From: Verrucomicrobia bacterium UBA3214
Lineage (GTDB): Bacteria; Verrucomicrobiota; Kiritimatiellia; RFP12; UBA1067
Assembly: GCA_002363575.1 (NCBI GenBank)
Contig: DEWI01000048.1
Coordinates: 1 to 27,618, forward strand
DNA length: 27,618 bases
Reading direction: 5' to 3'
The notes under the pieces are model-generated. The model was not told the DNA's origin. It searched no databases and saw nothing but the letters and a program-made list of their open reading frames with translations. This document shows positions 5,693 to 14,803 of this stretch, one piece after another. Position numbers and translations under genes: made by a program. Numbering within the stretch: the first letter of the stretch is position 1; the number at the start of each line of letters is the position of its first letter.

Positions 5693-6505
5693 ATGGACAG
5701 CGCCACATTCAGCAATCTGCTTGCCGAAGAGGTCAAGGGATACAAAACTCTTCTGGAGACGGAGGGGGGCGATTGGATTGTCAAAGGCTTCATTGACGTT
5801 CACCAGAATATATACTCGATGACCAACGACACCAAAGTGGTGTCTAAAATCCTCGAACTGATTCTTGTGCCGCGCCTTGAAGCCTTTGCCAAACGCAACG
5901 GACTTGCGATGGAATTCCCCTCGGCGCAGAATTTCTATCCCGACCTGACGTTCAAGGACGGGAAAGGAAACCTCTTCGCCGTTGATTTCAAGTCCAGCTA
6001 CTACAACAACAATCGGCAAGTCAACGGATTGACCCTGGGATCGTATTGGGGGTATTTCAGAAATAGAAACGTCAAGAAGAACATGGATCATCCATATGGC
6101 GACTATAAATGCCATCTAATTCTCGGCATTCTTTATCGCCAATCACCGGCGACCAACGGCGAGGGGTCAATCTACAAGATAGATGAATTGAAAATGATCA
6201 AGTCTGTGATCGACAGCTTCGTGTTCTTCGTCCAACCGAAATGGAAAGTGGCAAGCGACAGGCCAGGCAGCGGGAATACGCGAAACATAGGCGCCGCAAC
6301 CGACATTGACGACCTTGTCAACGGCAGAGGGACGTTTGCATCGCTTGGCGAAGATGTTTTCGACGCTTATTGGGCTGGATATTTCAACAAAAAAGACGCG
6401 CGGACAGAAGGAATTGGCAAGCCGCATTACCACAACATCGAGACATACAGGAAATATCTGTCGCGGCAAAGCAACCTGCTTAGGAAAATCTCGAACCGGC
6501 AATGA
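5693..6505 (+). CDS. Type II restriction endonuclease, EcoRV family (predicted GATATC)
   Basis: A 270-residue homologue of EcoRV, recognised by comparison with the remembered EcoRV sequence. Shared blocks are DTKVVSKILEL with the active-site-region Glu55, QNFYPDLT with Asp84, AVDFKSSY with Asp98 and Lys100 (the PD...DxK catalytic centre), TLGSYWGYFRN, and GSGNTRNIG at 192-200. The last block corresponds to the EcoRV recognition loop (GSGNT) that reads the GATATC bases, and the QN pair before the PD motif is also kept. Together these predict blunt cleavage at GATATC; the specificity is inference. There is no Shine-Dalgarno before the ATG. The reading frame is intact. Base composition differs from its surroundings: 6061-6120 has 21 G/C in 60, against 45 in 60 at 5461-5520 in moxR, suggesting transfer. 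The last bases overlap the methyltransferase start (ATGA). Confidence 0.9.
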   Translation: MDSATFSNLLAEEVKGYKTLLETEGGDWIVKGFIDVHQNIYSMTNDTKVVSKILELILVPRLEAFAKRNGLAMEFPSAQNFYPDLTFKDGKGNLFAVDFKSSYYNNNRQVNGLTLGSYWGYFRNRNVKKNMDHPYGDYKCHLILGILYRQSPATNGEGSIYKIDELKMIKSVIDSFVFFVQPKWKVASDRPGSGNTRNIGAATDIDDLVNGRGTFASLGEDVFDAYWAGYFNKKDARTEGIGKPHYHNIETYRKYLSRQSNLLRKISNRQ

Positions 6506-7410
6506 TCATACCGCCGATAAAATCGCAGGGCATAAAGACCAAGCTGGTGCCTTGGATAAACGAACTGGTAGCGTCTTCCGGCATTCCGGAAGACGCCGGG
6601 TGGGTTGAACCGTTCTTTGGCACCGGCGTAGTCGGCTTCAACTCTCCGCTGACCGGCCTGCATGTCGCCGGCGACACCAACCCGCACATTGTAAACTTTT
6701 ACAAAGGGATACAATCCGGGGCAGTAAGCGGGCAGACGATGCGAGCCTATCTCCAGCGCGAAAGCCGCCGTCTAGAAGATTCGCCGGACGACGGATATTC
6801 ATATTTTCTCGAAGTCAGGAGGCGATTCAACGCTTTGCACGATGTGCACGACTTCATCTTCCTTTCCCGCGCCGGGTTCAACGGCCTAATGCGCTTCAAC
6901 AAACACGGCGAATGGAACGTGCCCTTCTGCAAGAAGCAGAAAAGATTCACCGCCGCGTACATAACGAAAATCTGCAATCAAGTGATCGACGTGGCGAGGA
7001 CGATCGCCAAGAGCGACTGGGTGTTCAGCAATTCTTCGTTCCTGGAAACGGTATCCGCCGCCGGAGAAACGGATTTGATCTATTGCGACCCTCCGTATTT
7101 CGGGAGATATGCCGACTACTACAATGGATGGACCGAACACGACGAAAGCGAACTATACAATGCGCTGTCCAGGACAAAAGCGAAATTCATCCTGTCCACC
7201 TGGCATCACAATGCTTACCGACACAATGAAATGATAAAGCGGTATTGGAGCAAATTCAACGTTTCCACGCGAGAACACTTCTACCATACGGGCGGGAAAA
7301 TAGAAAACAGGCACCCCATGGTCGAGGCGCTCGTGTATAATTTCGACATGGTGCGAAAGCCGTGCTCTAAAACCGTACGGCAAATGGAGCTGTTTGCCGA
7401 AACTGCATGA
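6502..7410 (+). CDS. DNA adenine methyltransferase, M.EcoRV type (predicted GATATC)
   Basis: A 302-residue D12-class (Dam-like) N6-adenine methyltransferase that should protect host GATATC sites. The N-terminal PPIKSQGIKTKLVP block is nearly identical to what I recall for M.EcoRV. The SAM-binding motif I is EPFFGTG (36-42) and the catalytic motif IV is DPPY (196-199). Conserved blocks RFNKHGEWNVPFCKK, AYITKICNQV, STWHHNAYR and EHFYHTGG support the same specific subfamily and not general Dam (GATC). The start codon overlaps the endonuclease stop by 4 nt, so translation is probably coupled with the endonuclease first. This differs from the common safe order in which the methylase leads or a controller gene is present; none is seen here. 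The stop lies 17 nt before the DUF58 start. Confidence 0.92.
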   Translation: MIIPPIKSQGIKTKLVPWINELVASSGIPEDAGWVEPFFGTGVVGFNSPLTGLHVAGDTNPHIVNFYKGIQSGAVSGQTMRAYLQRESRRLEDSPDDGYSYFLEVRRRFNALHDVHDFIFLSRAGFNGLMRFNKHGEWNVPFCKKQKRFTAAYITKICNQVIDVARTIAKSDWVFSNSSFLETVSAAGETDLIYCDPPYFGRYADYYNGWTEHDESELYNALSRTKAKFILSTWHHNAYRHNEMIKRYWSKFNVSTREHFYHTGGKIENRHPMVEALVYNFDMVRKPCSKTVRQMELFAETA

Positions 7411-8670: not shown

Positions 8671-11600
8671 ATGAAAAAGACGGCGATAGCAGCGATTTGT
8701 CTGGCGGCATCATCGGTCGCCATCTCCGCGCCAGTTTCCGAAAGCGACGCGCGCGCCGCGGCTTCGGCATTCGTTTCTTCGGACGGCGTGGGCGCAGCGG
8801 TCCTGCACGGCAGGACGGTGAAATCCGCATTCGATCGCGACGGGCTTTGGATCGTCGCGCTCGCTCCATCCGGGCACGTCATCCTCTCCGGCAGCGATAT
8901 AGCCGACCCGATCGTCGGATTCTCGCAGAACGATTTCGCCGAGCCGGATCCGGAGTCGCCGGCATGCGCGCTGCTGGACGCCTCGGCCGCCGCTTCGCGT
9001 TCAGCGGAATCTTCCGGAGGCGCGCGCCATGCGAAGTGGGGGAAGCTGCTCGGCGGCGGCGGAAAGCGGTTGCTCAAGGCCCCCGACGCAGAAGCGCCGG
9101 AAACGGTCGTGGTGCCGCCGTTCCTCGAATCGCACTACAGCCAGTGGCAGCCATACAACGATTACATGCCGGTTTACGACTCCGCCGCGAACACCTCCCC
9201 CGGTCTCGAACGCCGCGGCCGCTGCCCGGGAGGCTGCATTGGAACCGCCGCAGTGCAGGGGTTTCGCCATTTCCGCTGGCCGGCGCGCATCGACCGCGAG
9301 ATTTCCTTCTTCCACACGTTCTCGGACGACTCCGGAGCCGCCATGCAATTCCCTATACGCTTTGACGGGCATGTTCCGTTGGCGTGGGATTCGCTTGCGG
9401 ACGATTACATCTATTACACAAACGTATGGACGACAGGCGGCAACACCGTCTCGCTGGTTTACGATCTTCGCGGCCATGTCGCCGAATCCGTGCGCCATCC
9501 GGTCGCCCGCCTCGTCTTGTTCGCGGACGTTCTCGCGCACATGTCATTCGGCAGCGGAGGCTCAGGCGCCCATTACAGCACCATAGCCGACAATGCTTCA
9601 GACTGGTACACCAAAGGGACGTGGGTTTCCATCGACGATCCGAGAGTCTTCGAGGACATTGCAAACGGCGTCCCGGTGCAGTTGACGATTCCGGCGCACG
9701 ACCATGCCGCCGTCGGGCATGGATGGGCTACAGACGGGACGGACAAATACATCTACTTGAATTACGGCTGGGGAGGCGGCAACGACGGCTACTACAACAT
9801 CGACGGCACGAAAAGCGCAAGCCCGATTCAAAATGTGTACGTCGGGCACTATCCGCGCGCCAAACCGCAACTCGATCCGCTGCCGAAGGTGTGCGGAACG
9901 GCCCTCACGCTAGACTGGCATTTCCCGGACTTTTACACAAACAACCTTTCCGGGTTCACGGTGTCGGCATCCAAGACGGCCGCGACGACATCCACCTTCC
10001 TCGACGACTTCACCGCCTCGGCGGGCGTTTCGTCCTCCGAAAACATCTATGTCGCGACTGACAGCGCCGGCACCGGCGGCAACCTTCTTTTCACCAAGCC
10101 GTTTACCTCCGGCACTTACACTTTCCCCGGCTCCTGCACGCTTACATCCGCTTCCGTGCTGACATTCAAAGTGTACAGTTTCGCGGCGCTTGGCGCAACG
10201 TATCAGATCGAGGCGCGTTTCGACGGCGGAGACTGGACGCCTCTTTACGCTCCTGCGTTGACAACGGGGTGGGGCGCTTCGGGGTGGAGCGTCGAGCGAG
10301 TCTATCTGGGCTCTCGCGGCGGGCAGACGGCGCAGTTCAGAATCCACAATTCCCATAGCGGCTCATATTATCCGCAAGACCAGAGCAGGATACTTCTCGA
10401 CGACTTCAAGGTGACGGAGGTGCTTGCGCCGGAAGAGCCGGTCGTATATTCCGCCGGGAAGGATGCTCGCAGTTTCCGGCTGTCCGGCTTGACGCCAGGC
10501 GCGACGTATTCCTTCGCGGTCGCGCCGGCAATATCCGGCGCATTGGTCGAAGGCGAGACGTCCGCACCTGTATCCGTCACCATCGCCGGCACGCACAGGA
10601 CGCCGCTTCCGGGAGAGGAGACGTACAGTTCCCGGACGCTTTCATTCTCGGCTTCCGACATGAGCGAGACATGGTCGTATTCGGGGACCGCGGCAGATGA
10701 CACGACAATTCGCGACAACCTGCGCTGTTCGATCGCCGTTGCGATCAACGGCAAGCTTGCGGCCTCGTCTTCGCTCTCGTTCGGATGGAGCGCGAAAAAC
10801 TACTACGGGAACGGCCAAGACACGCTGACGGCGGAGTTTGTCGCAAGCGACGGAACCTCGACAACGCTCTGGACGGCGACAAACACGCAAAACAGCGAAC
10901 GGCAAAACGTCACCCTGCCGCTCGGGGAATTCGCCGGGCGATCGGGGAAGATCGTGATTTCGTATATCCATTCCGGCAGCTATTACGCAGGCGACGAATA
11001 CGGCGGGCGTCTCTACGCTCCCAGCGTCGCAAACGTCCTCGTCCCGACCGTACCTGCCGCGGCATGGAAGATGGAGACGCTGACGGCGCTCGCAACGCCG
11101 GAAATCACGTCCGTATCCAATGTTTCGGAAGGCTTCTACGGCGAGTGCGGATTCGACGAGACCGCGTTCATCGTGACATGCTCCGAACACGTCGAACGCC
11201 TGACTGCGCGGCCGAGCCATCTTGCGCTCGCCGATGACGCCGACGTCACGGTGACGCCGAAAGGGAATGGCAGGTTTTCCGTGAAGATAAAGCCCGGCGG
11301 AATCAGCGATGCGAACGCCCGCTCGCGCATGATTCTCACTCTCGCGGCGACAGACGCGAACGGCACGACGGTTTACAAGGATCTTTCGCTGCGCTTCGAA
11401 AAGAAAGAAGCCGTCCAGTCCGTGACGATCGCCGCCGCGTCGCCCCACGGCTCCTCGCTGACGGTAGAAATCCCCTCTTCGTGGTTTGTCGAACAAGGCC
11501 TCGCGAACGCCAGCGCCTCGGCGGATGCGCTCGCGGAACTTGCCGCGGACGACAGCGACGGCGATGGCCGCGTCAACTGGTTCGAGTACATTTGCCAGAC

Positions 11601-11808
11601 CGACCCCGCCGATCCGTCCGACAAACTGACTTGCAATATCGAAGTCGTGGACGGCCGCGGCAAGGTCACATACGATCCAAGCGATCTCCGCCAGGGATTC
11701 AAGGCGGTGGTCAAAGGCACTGACGATCTTCGCGCCGAGAACTGGACCACGGTGACGACAACGACCTCGCCGCTCCATTTCTTCACCGTCGTAATCGAAA
11801 ACGATTGA
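8671..11808 (+). CDS. Secreted C10-family (streptopain-like) cysteine peptidase, multidomain
   Basis: A 1045-residue exported protein. Residues 1-20 form a signal peptide (MKK plus Ala-rich core, cleavage near AISA-PV). Residues about 24-90 resemble the Spi-type propeptide of C10 peptidases (SDARAAASAF ... IVALAPSGHVILSGSD). The catalytic domain has Cys189 in GGCIGTA, His350 in AVGHGWATDG, and the NYGWGGG block at 364-370 that mirrors streptopain's NWGWGG. Downstream lie two lectin-like jelly-roll segments (about 400-590 and 640-800) flanking an fn3-like repeat with LTPGATYSF. A C-terminal segment carries a calcium-loop motif DSDGDGRVNWFE (about 961-972). The start has a plausible AAAGGC-type ribosome site. 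Its likely role is digestion of host, dietary or competitor protein outside the cell. The catalytic assignment is good; substrates are unknown. Confidence 0.82.
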   Translation: MKKTAIAAICLAASSVAISAPVSESDARAAASAFVSSDGVGAAVLHGRTVKSAFDRDGLWIVALAPSGHVILSGSDIADPIVGFSQNDFAEPDPESPACALLDASAAASRSAESSGGARHAKWGKLLGGGGKRLLKAPDAEAPETVVVPPFLESHYSQWQPYNDYMPVYDSAANTSPGLERRGRCPGGCIGTAAVQGFRHFRWPARIDREISFFHTFSDDSGAAMQFPIRFDGHVPLAWDSLADDYIYYTNVWTTGGNTVSLVYDLRGHVAESVRHPVARLVLFADVLAHMSFGSGGSGAHYSTIADNASDWYTKGTWVSIDDPRVFEDIANGVPVQLTIPAHDHAAVGHGWATDGTDKYIYLNYGWGGGNDGYYNIDGTKSASPIQNVYVGHYPRAKPQLDPLPKVCGTALTLDWHFPDFYTNNLSGFTVSASKTAATTSTFLDDFTASAGVSSSENIYVATDSAGTGGNLLFTKPFTSGTYTFPGSCTLTSASVLTFKVYSFAALGATYQIEARFDGGDWTPLYAPALTTGWGASGWSVERVYLGSRGGQTAQFRIHNSHSGSYYPQDQSRILLDDFKVTEVLAPEEPVVYSAGKDARSFRLSGLTPGATYSFAVAPAISGALVEGETSAPVSVTIAGTHRTPLPGEETYSSRTLSFSASDMSETWSYSGTAADDTTIRDNLRCSIAVAINGKLAASSSLSFGWSAKNYYGNGQDTLTAEFVASDGTSTTLWTATNTQNSERQNVTLPLGEFAGRSGKIVISYIHSGSYYAGDEYGGRLYAPSVANVLVPTVPAAAWKMETLTALATPEITSVSNVSEGFYGECGFDETAFIVTCSEHVERLTARPSHLALADDADVTVTPKGNGRFSVKIKPGGISDANARSRMILTLAATDANGTTVYKDLSLRFEKKEAVQSVTIAAASPHGSSLTVEIPSSWFVEQGLANASASADALAELAADDSDGDGRVNWFEYICQTDPADPSDKLTCNIEVVDGRGKVTYDPSDLRQGFKAVVKGTDDLRAENWTTVTTTTSPLHFFTVVIEND

Positions 11809-11974: not shown

Positions 11975-12128
11975 GATAGGTATCGCTTGCGGAAGTGATA
12001 GGTATCGGCTGGAGAAGCGATAACTATCGGTTGAGGAAGTGATAGGTATCGGTTGGAGAGGCGATACCTATCGGTTGGAGAGGCGATAGGTATCGGTTTG
12101 GGAAGCGATAGGTATCGGTTTGTGGGGC
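11975..12128 (+). repeat. Seven tandem 22-bp repeats with palindromic GATANNTATCG core
   Basis: Seven units start at 11975, 11997, 12019, 12041, 12063, 12085 and 12107, each exactly 22 bp. Every unit begins GATANNTATCG; the two central bases are GG, GG, AC, GG, CC, GG, GG. The remaining 11 bp vary around GTTGGAGAAGC. GATA and TATC arms are invariant in all seven, while the intervening 11 bp differ at many positions, so the cores seem to be under stronger constraint. Five of the seven cores are preceded by C or followed by G such that CGATA-NN-TATCG forms a longer palindrome. The 22-bp period is about two helical turns, which would place all cores on one DNA face. The binding factor and role are unknown. 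Confidence 0.95.
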
Positions 12129-12161: not shown

Positions 12162-13538
12162 TTATTCGTCTTTCTGCTGGGGAGCCTTCGTCGAGGACGA
12201 GCGCGGGCGCGGCTTCGGGAGAAGGCGGAGCGGGGCGCCGGCGAGGCCGAAACGCGCGCGAATCGCCTTTTCGAGATATGCGAGATAGGCTGGGGTGGCG
12301 AGCGCGGGGTCGTTGACGAAGAGGCGAATCGTCTGGGGGTTGGTGGAGACCTGCAAAGCGTAGTAGAGTTTTAGGCGCTTGCCGCGAATCATCGGCGAGA
12401 GGGTCTTTTTCGCCGCCACTTCCAGCGTCCGGTTCAACATGCCCGTAGGCAGGCGCATGGAAGCCGACGCGGCGGCGGAATCGATCGCCTCAATGCTTTT
12501 GCGGATATTGTAGCCGGATTTGTTCGAGCAGAAGACGACCGGGGCGAAATTGAGGAACGGCAGCATCTGGCGCATGGCCTCGCGCGCCGCGGCTTCGTCG
12601 ATGCCCTCTGCCTGCGCGAGGTCCCACTTGTTCATCAAGACGACGCAAGCTTTGTTCGCGTCGAGGACTTTGCCGGCGATACGCTTGTCCTGCATGGTCG
12701 GGCCGAGCGCCGCTTCCATGACGATCAATACGACATCCGCTTCCTCTATTGCCTGTTCGGAGCGGAAAAGCGAGAAATTGTCCACGCTCGTCTTCGACAT
12801 TTTCGTATGCGGCTTCATTCCGGCGGTATCGACGAGCATGTAATGGCGCGCTTCCGGCCCGGAACCGATCGTGAACGGGACTTCGACGGCGTCGCGCGTC
12901 GTCCCCGGGATTTCCGAGACGATCACGCGAGGCGCATTCAGCAACCGGTTTACATACGAAGACTTGCCGGCGTTCGGGCGCCCGACGATCGCCACGCGAA
13001 GCGGACGCACGGCGCTCTCGTCCGCCACGGCGGCGGGGAGCCGCGCGGCCACCGCCTCGAGAAGCTCGCCGACGCCGCGCCCGTGCTCTGCGCTTATCGC
13101 GTGCACCTCGAGGCCGAAGCGCTCGAATTCCGCCGCCAGGGCGTCGTCGCGCGGCGTATCGCACTTGTTGGCGGCGACGATGCAAGGCACGCCGGATTCG
13201 CGCACGCGCGCGATGACTTCGGCGTCCAGCGGCGTCACGCCCTCGCGCGCATCGACGACGATCACGCACACGGCGGAGTCCTCGACGGCGAGCGCGGCTT
13301 GCGAGCGCGTCTCGTCGTCTAGCGGATCGCGCGTGACTCGGCGGTCGAAAGCGATGCCGCCGGTATCGACGAGCATTACGCTGCGCCCGAGGATCTCGAC
13401 TTGGCGGGTCACGCGGTCGCGCGTCACGCCAGGCTGATCGAAGACGATGGCGACGCGCTTTTTCGCGATTCTGTTGAACAGCGCGCTTTTCCCTGTATTG
13501 GGGCGGCCGACGAGCGATACTACTATATTGGCGTTCAT
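12162..13538 (-). CDS. der: Ribosome-assembly GTPase Der (EngA)
   Basis: A 458-residue double-GTPase needed for 50S ribosomal subunit assembly. The first G domain has GRPNTGKS (11-18), DTGG (58-61) and NKCD. The second has GRPNAGKSS, PGTTRD, DTAG and NKWD. A KH-like C-terminal domain follows, ending in a basic, proline-rich tail. The ATG at 13538 (MNANIVVSLVGRPN) is chosen because it places the first P-loop at the usual distance; an upstream in-frame extension of 57 residues is proline/alanine-rich and not family-like. No Shine-Dalgarno precedes this ATG, and a strong hairpin lies about 20 nt upstream. It is the last gene of a minus-strand run after alr, with a probable own promoter inside the 3' end of alr. 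Confidence 0.95.
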   Translation of the reverse strand: MNANIVVSLVGRPNTGKSALFNRIAKKRVAIVFDQPGVTRDRVTRQVEILGRSVMLVDTGGIAFDRRVTRDPLDDETRSQAALAVEDSAVCVIVVDAREGVTPLDAEVIARVRESGVPCIVAANKCDTPRDDALAAEFERFGLEVHAISAEHGRGVGELLEAVAARLPAAVADESAVRPLRVAIVGRPNAGKSSYVNRLLNAPRVIVSEIPGTTRDAVEVPFTIGSGPEARHYMLVDTAGMKPHTKMSKTSVDNFSLFRSEQAIEEADVVLIVMEAALGPTMQDKRIAGKVLDANKACVVLMNKWDLAQAEGIDEAAAREAMRQMLPFLNFAPVVFCSNKSGYNIRKSIEAIDSAAASASMRLPTGMLNRTLEVAAKKTLSPMIRGKRLKLYYALQVSTNPQTIRLFVNDPALATPAYLAYLEKAIRARFGLAGAPLRLLPKPRPRSSSTKAPQQKDE

Positions 13539-13558
13539 GTTCGGAGGATGTATTGCAG

Positions 13559-13575
13559 CGCGGGCAAGGCCCGCG
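13559..13575 (-). promoter_or_regulatory. Perfect hairpin in the der leader
   Basis: CGCGGGC (13559-13565) and GCCCGCG (13569-13575) form a perfect 7-bp stem around a 3-nt loop, ending 20 nt before the der start codon on the minus strand. Since der lacks a Shine-Dalgarno, the stem may influence initiation or end the alr transcript. Function unknown. Confidence 0.45.
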
Positions 13576-13666
13576 TGTGCGTTTGCGGTATCGTTTGGCT
13601 GGGCCGCGGGGCGCGGCGGCGGGGAAAGCGGAACTTGGGAAAGCGCAATGCGCGGGAACTGGCGGC

Positions 13667-14803
13667 TCAATACTTTACTACACGCTCGACACGCGAGCCG
13701 AGCGAACATATTATATCATATGCGTGGGTGCCTTTGACGGCCGCCCAGTCGTCCGGCGTGACGATTTCGCCGCCGCTTCTGCCGAGGCACACTACCTCGT
13801 CGCCGGCGGCGACATCCGGGACGCGCGAAACATCGACGGTCGTATAATCCATCGAGACTCTGCCGACGACGGGGCAGCGCACGCCCTTGATCAAGACTTG
13901 CGCGCGGTTCGCAAGCGCGAGCGGGAGGCCGTCGGCGTAGCCGGCGGAAATCGTCGCTATCTTTGTCGCCTCGCGCAGGCACCACGTCCTGCCGTAGCCG
14001 AGCGTGGAGCCGGCTTTCAGCGTGCGGACTTGGGCGACGCGCGTTTTGAGCGCAAGCACCGGCTCGACGGCGAGCGCCCTGCGGCCGTTCGGATCGAACG
14101 AGCCGTGCAGATTTATGCCCGCCCTGACGACATTGAACGGCGCGCGCGCGCATTCCGGGAAATTGTTTATGGCGTCGGAAGCGGCCATGTGGACATACTT
14201 GAACGCCAGGCCTTGCGCCGCCGCGGCGGCGACGAGCGCCTTGAAGCGCGCAATCTGCCCCGCCGTGAACGGATCGCGCGGATCGTAGGCCATCGGGCAA
14301 TGCGTAAATATGCCTTCGCAATCGAGACCGGGAAGCGCGCACGCCTCGCGAACAACCGCCAGCGCCTCGTCTTCGACGATCCCCAGGCGCCCCATGCCGG
14401 TATCGATCTTGAAATGGACGCGCGCCTTTCTGCCGATGCGGACGGCCGCGTCGCTTATCGCCCTGGCTTCTTCGCGCCCCGCGACAGGCAGTACGATGCC
14501 GGCGGCGACCATATCGGGGATTTCATCCGGCAGCACCGAAGAAAGGATCTGTATCGACGCATCGGCGGAGCGCCCGCATTCTGCGAGCACGCCTGCAAGC
14601 TCCATCGCCTCGAAAGGCTCGGCGACGCCGAACATCCGGCAACCGGCGCCGGCCAGCGCGCGCGCATACGCGCCGACGCCGAGGCCGTACGCATTCGCCT
14701 TCAGCACGCAAAGCACCTGCGCCGGCTGCACATGCGCCGCGATCTTCCCGTAGTTCCTGACCAAAGCGCCGACATCTATCTCGACGCGCACCCGTCTCTT
14801 CAT
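13667..14803 (-). CDS. alr: Alanine racemase
   Basis: Converts L-alanine to D-alanine for peptidoglycan, using PLP. The 378-residue protein has the PLP lysine in LKANAYG (Lys35). The second catalytic base, Tyr270, lies in STLGYGRTW. HFKIDTGMGRLG, GIFTHCPMA and GRVSMDYTTVD blocks are in the usual order. The usual tyrosine in the RPGIxLYG block is replaced by histidine (RAGINLHG), a small deviation. AAGGGAAG lies 9 nt upstream of the ATG. It sits 63 nt downstream of hslO; two GC-rich hairpins occupy that gap. The gene ends 128 nt before der. Confidence 0.94.
   Translation of the reverse strand: MKRRVRVEIDVGALVRNYGKIAAHVQPAQVLCVLKANAYGLGVGAYARALAGAGCRMFGVAEPFEAMELAGVLAECGRSADASIQILSSVLPDEIPDMVAAGIVLPVAGREEARAISDAAVRIGRKARVHFKIDTGMGRLGIVEDEALAVVREACALPGLDCEGIFTHCPMAYDPRDPFTAGQIARFKALVAAAAAQGLAFKYVHMAASDAINNFPECARAPFNVVRAGINLHGSFDPNGRRALAVEPVLALKTRVAQVRTLKAGSTLGYGRTWCLREATKIATISAGYADGLPLALANRAQVLIKGVRCPVVGRVSMDYTTVDVSRVPDVAAGDEVVCLGRSGGEIVTPDDWAAVKGTHAYDIICSLGSRVERVVKY
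13710..13725 (-). promoter_or_regulatory. Extended -10 promoter inside the 3' end of alr, for der
   Basis: Read on the minus strand, CATATGATATAATATG contains TATAAT (13715-13710) preceded by TGA, an extended -10 like those of the other genes here. The start would be near 13703 and the leader to der about 165 nt. It lies within alr coding sequence and, unlike the others, has no inverted repeat in the -35 region. Confidence 0.45.

Follow-up and report, generated by a model that had tools for sequence, protein, structure and literature searches.

Seven-unit palindrome arrays with a 22-bp step form a dispersed intergenic family in a Verrucomicrobiota genome and recur on other palindromes in sister species

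Why should a bacterial genome line up seven copies of one short palindrome, exactly 22 bp apart, between two gene ends? The question is raised by positions 11975 to 12128 of the window, by which we mean the whole stretch of 27,618 nucleotides analysed here. Every step in this array is 22 bp, and TRF describes it as a repeat with a period of 22, 6.6 copies, 0% indels and a score of 180. The core reads GATA-GG-TATCG in units 1 (11975 to 11996), 2 (11997 to 12018), 4 (12041 to 12062), 6 (12085 to 12106) and 7 (12107 to 12128), GATA-AC-TATCG in unit 3 (12019 to 12040) and GATA-CC-TATCG in unit 5 (12063 to 12084), where identical spacers on either side imply an inversion of the centre alone. GATA, TATC and the next G are kept in all seven units, and GATANNTATC matches the array seven times, a number that none of 100 dinucleotide shuffles attained (mean 0.14). 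Comparison of unit pairs shows differences at the two central bases in 50% of cases, at the spacer bases in 33% and at the eight core positions in none. The array sits between convergent gene ends, those of a C10-family peptidase gene on the forward strand (8671 to 11808; PF01640, 4.5e-18) and of the gene for the ribosome-biogenesis GTPase Der/EngA on the reverse strand (12162 to 13709; TIGR03594, 1.2e-136), both given here as context only. Judging by length, the true start of the latter probably lies inside the called open reading frame, because relatives among the matches listed are 445-491 aa long. Seven units without indels, an invariant core amid a varying centre and spacer, and a place between convergent genes had all been described in an earlier, sequence-only reading of the window, and all three descriptions hold.

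Elsewhere in the window (5693 to 7410, forward strand), a gene for an EcoRV-type endonuclease (PF09233, 5.9e-88) is directly followed by one for a D12 N6-adenine methyltransferase (PF02086). The EcoRV site is GATATC; depletion of this hexamer in the window was looked for and not found (4 observed versus 5.26 expected).

The array is not alone. The genome from which the window comes (G000; 2.15 Mb in 180 contigs, 74% complete) contains 62 forward and 61 reverse matches to the two-core pattern, with none for the reversed pattern, and 15 loci with at least four in-register units, namely the window locus and 14 others, as the sequence-only reading had anticipated when it proposed a search for further arrays. 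Allowing two mismatches yields 87 adjacent pairs (2 for the reversed control) compared with 73 exact pairs in the 15 loci, and decayed arrays must therefore be few. The step between exact cores is 22 bp with one exception: two cores of the C16 array lie 44 bp apart, and the unit between them has a one-base change. If a position in register counts as a dyad once three or more of its four dyad pairs are present, a rule that a random 10-mer passes in 6.7% of places, 11 of the 15 arrays have seven units and the others 6, 6, 8 and 9; a rule based on core mismatches gives seven units in 10 of 14 arrays, eight in three and six in one. End units are frequently decayed. None of the 15 loci lies wholly within a called gene. 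One of them, on contig C62 (L150, 174-315), overlaps the start of a called open reading frame, whose product has HU-type DNA-binding and DUF4469 domains. This array combines two core types in a single 22-bp register: its seven units comprise five of GATA-NN-TATC type along with GGAAACTACC and GGAAGTTTCC, in the order GATAAGTATC, GATAGCTATC, GATAACTATC, GATAGCTATC, GGAAACTACC, GGAAGTTTCC, GATAGCTATC. We looked by eye for a flank common to the G000 arrays and saw none.

What exactly is conserved in these units? Each consists of GATANNTATCG plus 11 nt, 22 bp in all. Across 85 exact units (C62 left out here and in the centre counts below) the conserved site extends symmetrically beyond the core noted earlier, to RRS-CGATA-NN-TATCG-SYY, or about 18 bp. 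The central dinucleotide is GG in 37 units, CC in 34, GT in nine, AC in three and TG in two, and is self-complementary in none of the 85. With GG and CC at similar frequencies, it looks as though template switching within the palindrome had inverted the two-base centre. Comparison of 151 pairs of internal units, drawn from 14 arrays without C62, gives mismatches of 1.3% in the core, 40.7% in the centre and 36.6% in the spacer; with end units included (309 unit pairs) the figures are 6.7%, 40.5% and 42.4%. Note that the arrays were found by their cores, so that some of this conservation reflects ascertainment, an effect limited by the 87 loose versus 73 exact pairs. The claim that a twofold-symmetric site is under selection, and that recent duplication alone would not produce this pattern, is thus upheld by the difference between core and spacer. 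The left spacers of an array tend towards C and the right ones towards G, the window array being G-rich nearly throughout. In the 10 seven-unit arrays, spacers with the same index resemble each other more than they do other spacers, to a degree reached in 0 of 500 permutations, and since this resemblance goes beyond expectation, it suggests that the G000 arrays share one seven-unit ancestor. Similarity by position shows no preference for the direction of transcription, with 40 of 512 orientation combinations reaching an equal value.

The surroundings of the arrays bear on what the sites might do. On gene calls made by our own script, G000 gaps of at least 150 bp with both neighbours called are co-directional in 11 cases and convergent in one (the window) when they hold an array, and co-directional in 13, convergent in two and divergent in three when they do not; the corresponding figures for G017, a species of the same genus, are eight co-directional with an array, and 15 co-directional, four convergent and three divergent without. 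No array was found in a divergent gap with both neighbours called in G000, G017 or G019. The G000 and G017 counts amount to a mild tendency at most. The convergent position, which had been taken as a clue, does not survive the comparison, the window being the only convergent one of the 12 G000 array gaps with both neighbours called. The neighbours themselves are unrelated: they include Der, DnaK, Mfd, a Sua5-type protein, ACP, a pterin-binding enzyme, T2SSE, a Mg-chelatase-type and an alanine-racemase-type protein and others, and four of the 25 neighbours scanned around the other G000 arrays gave no family match. An operator of a local regulon, whose sites would lie in promoters of functionally linked genes, does not fit these neighbours. 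A partition site, which the sequence-only reading had considered, is a poor fit with 15 dispersed loci beside unrelated genes. One array adjoins a gene for a CesT/Tir-chaperone family protein (L157, 6741-7208; PF05932, 4.9e-9).

How far does this particular family extend? The GATA pattern was looked for in 39 further genomes of the order, including 23 from the same genus, and found in none. Among 387 genomes of the phylum, a search with a profile of the arrays matched G000 and, weakly, one other sequence, a chance-like 21-bp minisatellite; 13 candidates per genome were scored among those listed, and misses in this search are weak evidence. Being found in no other genome searched from the phylum would be odd for an essential site. 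Nor is the position fixed at der, a possibility we dismissed: TRF reports no 22-bp array with as many as three units at the der loci of the 27 relatives that have a match, three of these loci, two of them cut off, being unreadable downstream of der. In plasmids, none of three arrays found a match. In viral contigs, the G000 two-core pattern occurs in two stretches, each a single two-core pair, and two other cores in none (0 and 0); a viral origin was rejected on these counts.

The layout reappears on other palindromes. It is seen in six species of the genus (G000, G005, G006, G017, G019 and G422), with a patchy distribution. In 267 kb sampled from three species there are 22-bp arrays on other palindromic cores, with more than one core per species; the cores are self-complementary there too, both arms having changed together (G017, G019, G005, G422). 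The G017 core is AAAGGT-NNN-ACCTTT, with a 22-bp unit. The pattern AAAGGT-NN-AACCTTT has 27 forward and 31 reverse matches in G017, one in G207 and none in the other 56 genomes of the genus, while its reversed control gives single matches in seven of 58. Of 13 G017 loci, nine hold elements uncut by a contig end or N run, with 7, 7, 2, 4, 7, 7, 1, 7 and 9 units. By eye, seven of the 13 loci have a leader ahead of the units that reads ..TATGGCAGTTCAA or nearly so, and nine have a tail behind them that reads TTGCGCTGGCATTCTAATGC or nearly so; several of the others are cut by a contig end or N run, and in some elements a further common stretch lies behind the tail. In G019, TTCTAC-NN-GTAGAA recurs at a step of 23 bp, with 28 matches there and none in 57 other genomes of the genus (reversed control: none in G019, one or two in some others). 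The five arrays have 6, 8, 7, 7 and 7 units when units of TTCGTCCGGACCAA type are counted, and AATGGGCATT units are present besides TTCGTCCGGACCAA. Three of the five (L330-L332) combine units of TTCTACNNGTAGAA with units of TTCGTCCGGACCAA in a single 23-bp register, possibly a snapshot of core replacement, and L332 and L334 have inverted ends around CCGAAATCGGCTCAAACG. G005 has one GACA-NN-TGTC array as well as arrays of CGTTGGAACG and CCATATATGG type; the extra cores in G005 and G019 mean that a species is not confined to one palindrome. In G422 both GACA-NN-TGTC and AAGTSAYA-NN-TRTSACTT form arrays, and G006 has one array of a less regular kind. The latter was the one 22-bp array that TRF reported in 283 kb from 20 other genomes of the genus, and 396 kb from seven genomes of the genus held further arrays of the same kind in G422 and G006. 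In G002 and G012 there are 21-23-bp repeats in which no palindrome is clear. TRF on 302 kb from 20 genomes of the order or family found no array with a step of 21-24 bp outside long open frames. One 18-kb contig from the same order (G033, C1; L262) contains five 13-bp minisatellites.

Similar arrays occur far beyond the genus. Among named genomes, two GATANNTATCG cores at a distance of 22 bp occur in at least 108 stretches. Parabacteroides, Prevotella and Chryseobacterium contribute many of them, and others come from Tannerella, Carboxylicivirga, Spirochaetes and scattered taxa; some of these are single pairs or chance. Within these stretches (L036-L143) we count 63 arrays of at least three loosely matched units (21 co-directional, 13 convergent, 12 divergent, 12 undetermined and 5 intragenic), a figure that includes one 11-bp repeat (L125) twice. 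The GAYA-NN-TRTC arrays of Parabacteroides, Prevotella and others resemble those of G000 in core type, in the 22-bp period, in being present several times per genome and in being usually intergenic, but differ in having 3-6 units, often palindromic spacers, low G+C and all gene orientations. The likeness may reflect homology or convergence. By eye, the elements of Parabacteroides sp. 52 have inverted ends around ATTYTACTGTT. In Chryseobacterium, for example at L037, L064 and L078, a similar ..ACAAAG.AAC.ACAT.. stretch is followed by a single pair GATAYATATCG..GATATTTATCG at a distance of 22 bp, which looks like a conserved regulatory site, not an array.

How might these observations be reconciled? 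We lean, with little more than even confidence, towards the array being one copy of a dispersed intergenic non-coding element in which about seven dyad protein sites are set end to end, two helical turns apart. The core is probably, on the pattern of conservation, a putative dyad site for a dimeric DNA-binding protein, carried by a dispersed element of REPIN- or BrickBuilt-like kind. We favour a protein dyad because pairing inside the spacers is not selected, and the recurrence of one layout on different palindromes in sister species points to a putative DNA-binding partner whose preference would differ by species. Each palindrome would be bound by a dimer of a sequence-specific protein, and the seven dimers would lie on almost the same face of the helix, where they might form a nucleoprotein patch at gene ends. 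The specificity of the protein would differ between species, with the arrays following it, and spread within a genome would proceed by copying whole arrays, in the manner of REPINs or BrickBuilt MITEs. As a guess, the putative binding protein might be a domesticated transposase or a nucleoid-type protein. An earlier suggestion to look for further arrays and a co-occurring DNA-binding protein has been answered in its first half, but no candidate partner was found in the genus genomes beyond the Y1 transposase family (Y1_Tnp) discussed below.

The palindromes might instead be kept for base pairing, as an RNA or DNA hairpin at gene ends (a terminator, a protector of mRNA 3' ends or a cruciform) with no protein site involved. 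The self-complementary cores of other species are compatible with this, as is the absence of arrays from divergent gaps in G000, G017 and G019. In each of two G000 arrays (L146, L152) the sequence of one end unit is GACG-CC-CGTC, in which none of the four pairs is lost. There is a tendency for left spacers to be the reverse complements of right ones, and the order within arrays folds slightly better than shuffled order: the 14 real G000 arrays sum to -779 kcal/mol on the sense strand, compared with -751 (sd 9; 60 permutations) when order is shuffled within arrays. The G017 elements, moreover, point with the transcription of neighbouring genes in 13 of 13 loci (by eye; L293 by its remnant end only), which a protein site leaves unexplained because such a site is symmetric. 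It is for this orientation, for the C-rich/G-rich order and for the within-array fold control that we retain the hairpin as a rival. Yet spacer positions do not covary towards pairing. Across 70 spacers, opposite positions pair less often than expected at 2/11 (22 versus 34.2), 3/10 (32 versus 38.3) and 5/8 (11 versus 27.6), and only 6/7 lies slightly above expectation (26 versus 20.1). Dealing out cores and spacers across arrays gives a mean of -926 (sd 28; 60 permutations), so that real arrays are less stable than this control; both controls taken together indicate that the arrays are not built for maximal pairing, though the order of units is favourable. The two bases between the arms of G000 cores are too few for an RNA loop, changes in one arm show no bias towards G-U on the sense strand (4 units versus 4), and a search of the window against Rfam at gathering cut-offs was empty. 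Spacer pairing, the across-locus control and the empty Rfam search led us to set the hairpin aside as the selected feature, and we rate it as unlikely. The suggestion that the array is the source of a structured RNA is thus countered by the spacer-pairing and across-locus controls, though not decisively.

Might the arrays serve nothing but themselves? If the family were a MITE or minisatellite of a purely selfish kind, its palindromes would matter only to a putative transposase and bring the host no benefit. The leaders, tails and further common stretches of G017 fit such a family, as do the inverted ends in G019 and in Parabacteroides sp. 52, the patchy distribution and, as far as the available parts of the report show, the precedent of BrickBuilt (PMC4596501). 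The G000 arrays, however, share no flank discernible by eye and yet keep their cores intact while their spacers have drifted far, and their unit number stays at 6-9, mostly seven, compared with 1 to 22.8 in the BrickBuilt text available, though G017 has copies of one, two and four units. We consider this explanation possible, if on balance doubtful. A true REPIN/RAYT system, with arrays made by a Y1 (HUH) REP-associated transposase, strikes us as highly improbable. Y1_Tnp matches are present in 39 of 58 genomes of the genus, and in G019 a seven-unit array follows one Y1 gene at a distance of about 70 bp. But G000 (74% complete) and G005 (64% complete) gave no Y1_Tnp match, the sole Y1 gene of G017 has no AAAGGT core in its surrounding 3.3-kb locus even with two mismatches allowed, TRF detects no 22/23-bp array of seven at the other 19 of 20 Y1 loci (up to about 1.5 kb on each side), and the G000 unit profile lacks a constant GTAG or CGTC tag. 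The AAAGGT..ACCTTT site of G207, about 700 bp from a Y1 gene, was discarded as a hint when a similar GTGTAACCTTT stretch was seen before the same downstream gene in G019. The Y1_Tnp genes at L302 (G207) and L312 (G019) lie upstream of what is apparently one and the same gene (product ..SNVNISL.QF.DI.SG).

Returning to an element built of protein dyads, a bolder version can be entertained. From one species to another the arrays keep their period and number but exchange the palindrome, even one unit at a time within an array, which would imply co-evolution of protein and arrays, much as PRDM9 and its hotspots co-evolve. A putative protein of fast-changing specificity would then act on seven-dyad arrays at gene ends as a system that punctuates the chromosome; we regard this as a tentative idea, with the balance tilted well against it. 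Repeat families are usually recognised by sequence, so that an element that keeps its geometry (a 22/23-bp step and about seven palindromes) but differs in sequence from one sister species to the next is missed by searches of that kind. If a protein does drive the change, each species would be a natural experiment on how DNA-binding specificity changes, and the arrays would directly supply the target sequences for testing.

Has such an element been described before? In the literature searched, whose scope did not extend to figures, supplements or most subscription journals, no published element matches by sequence, and a search on five core strings yielded nothing relevant among the matches listed (title and start of abstract). 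The statement that no described element matches therefore stands at the level of sequence in that literature but not at the level of architecture, where BrickBuilt MITEs and REP/REPINs are precedents. In the parts of the report available, the BrickBuilt MITE of Porphyromonas gingivalis is an intergenic element of 19 dispersed copies, with tandem 23-nt bricks of conserved and variable positions, 1 to 22.8 repeats, and a leader and tail with small inverted ends (PMC4596501). The G017 and G019 elements are similar to it in overall layout, and like the G000 arrays with their 15 loci it is dispersed, intergenic and multi-copy. Its brick AGAYCATARTATCCTCTCRTRTG, at 23 nt, is not the GATANNTATCG-based unit of G000; leader and tail with inverted ends are not seen by eye in G000, leader and tail being found in G017 and inverted ends in two G019 elements; its repeat number ranges widely where the G000 arrays keep to about seven; and the word "palindrome" does not appear in the text examined. 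REP, BIME and REPIN sequences with their RAYTs are, in the portions of the sources available, short extragenic palindromes of many families across species, some in tandem groups (PMC3733652, PMC3116915). The G000 arrays resemble them in being dispersed, extragenic, species-specific palindromes, but have a strict 22/23-bp tandem register of about seven units, lack the GTAG or CGTC tag beside the palindrome; no Y1 transposase match was found in their genome as far as it is complete (74%). The iterons of R6K, as described in the part of the source available, are seven 22-bp direct repeats to which Rep binds at the origin of a plasmid (PMC4980987), and so share both number and length with the G000 units; the latter differ in being palindromes, in occupying 15 dispersed loci and in having no plasmid match, and we rejected plasmid iterons given those loci beside unrelated genes and the three arrays unmatched in plasmids. 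While none of these systems, as far as the available texts describe them, fits all the features tested, the nearest in architecture is BrickBuilt, the nearest in behaviour are the REP families, and the nearest in count and period are the R6K iterons.
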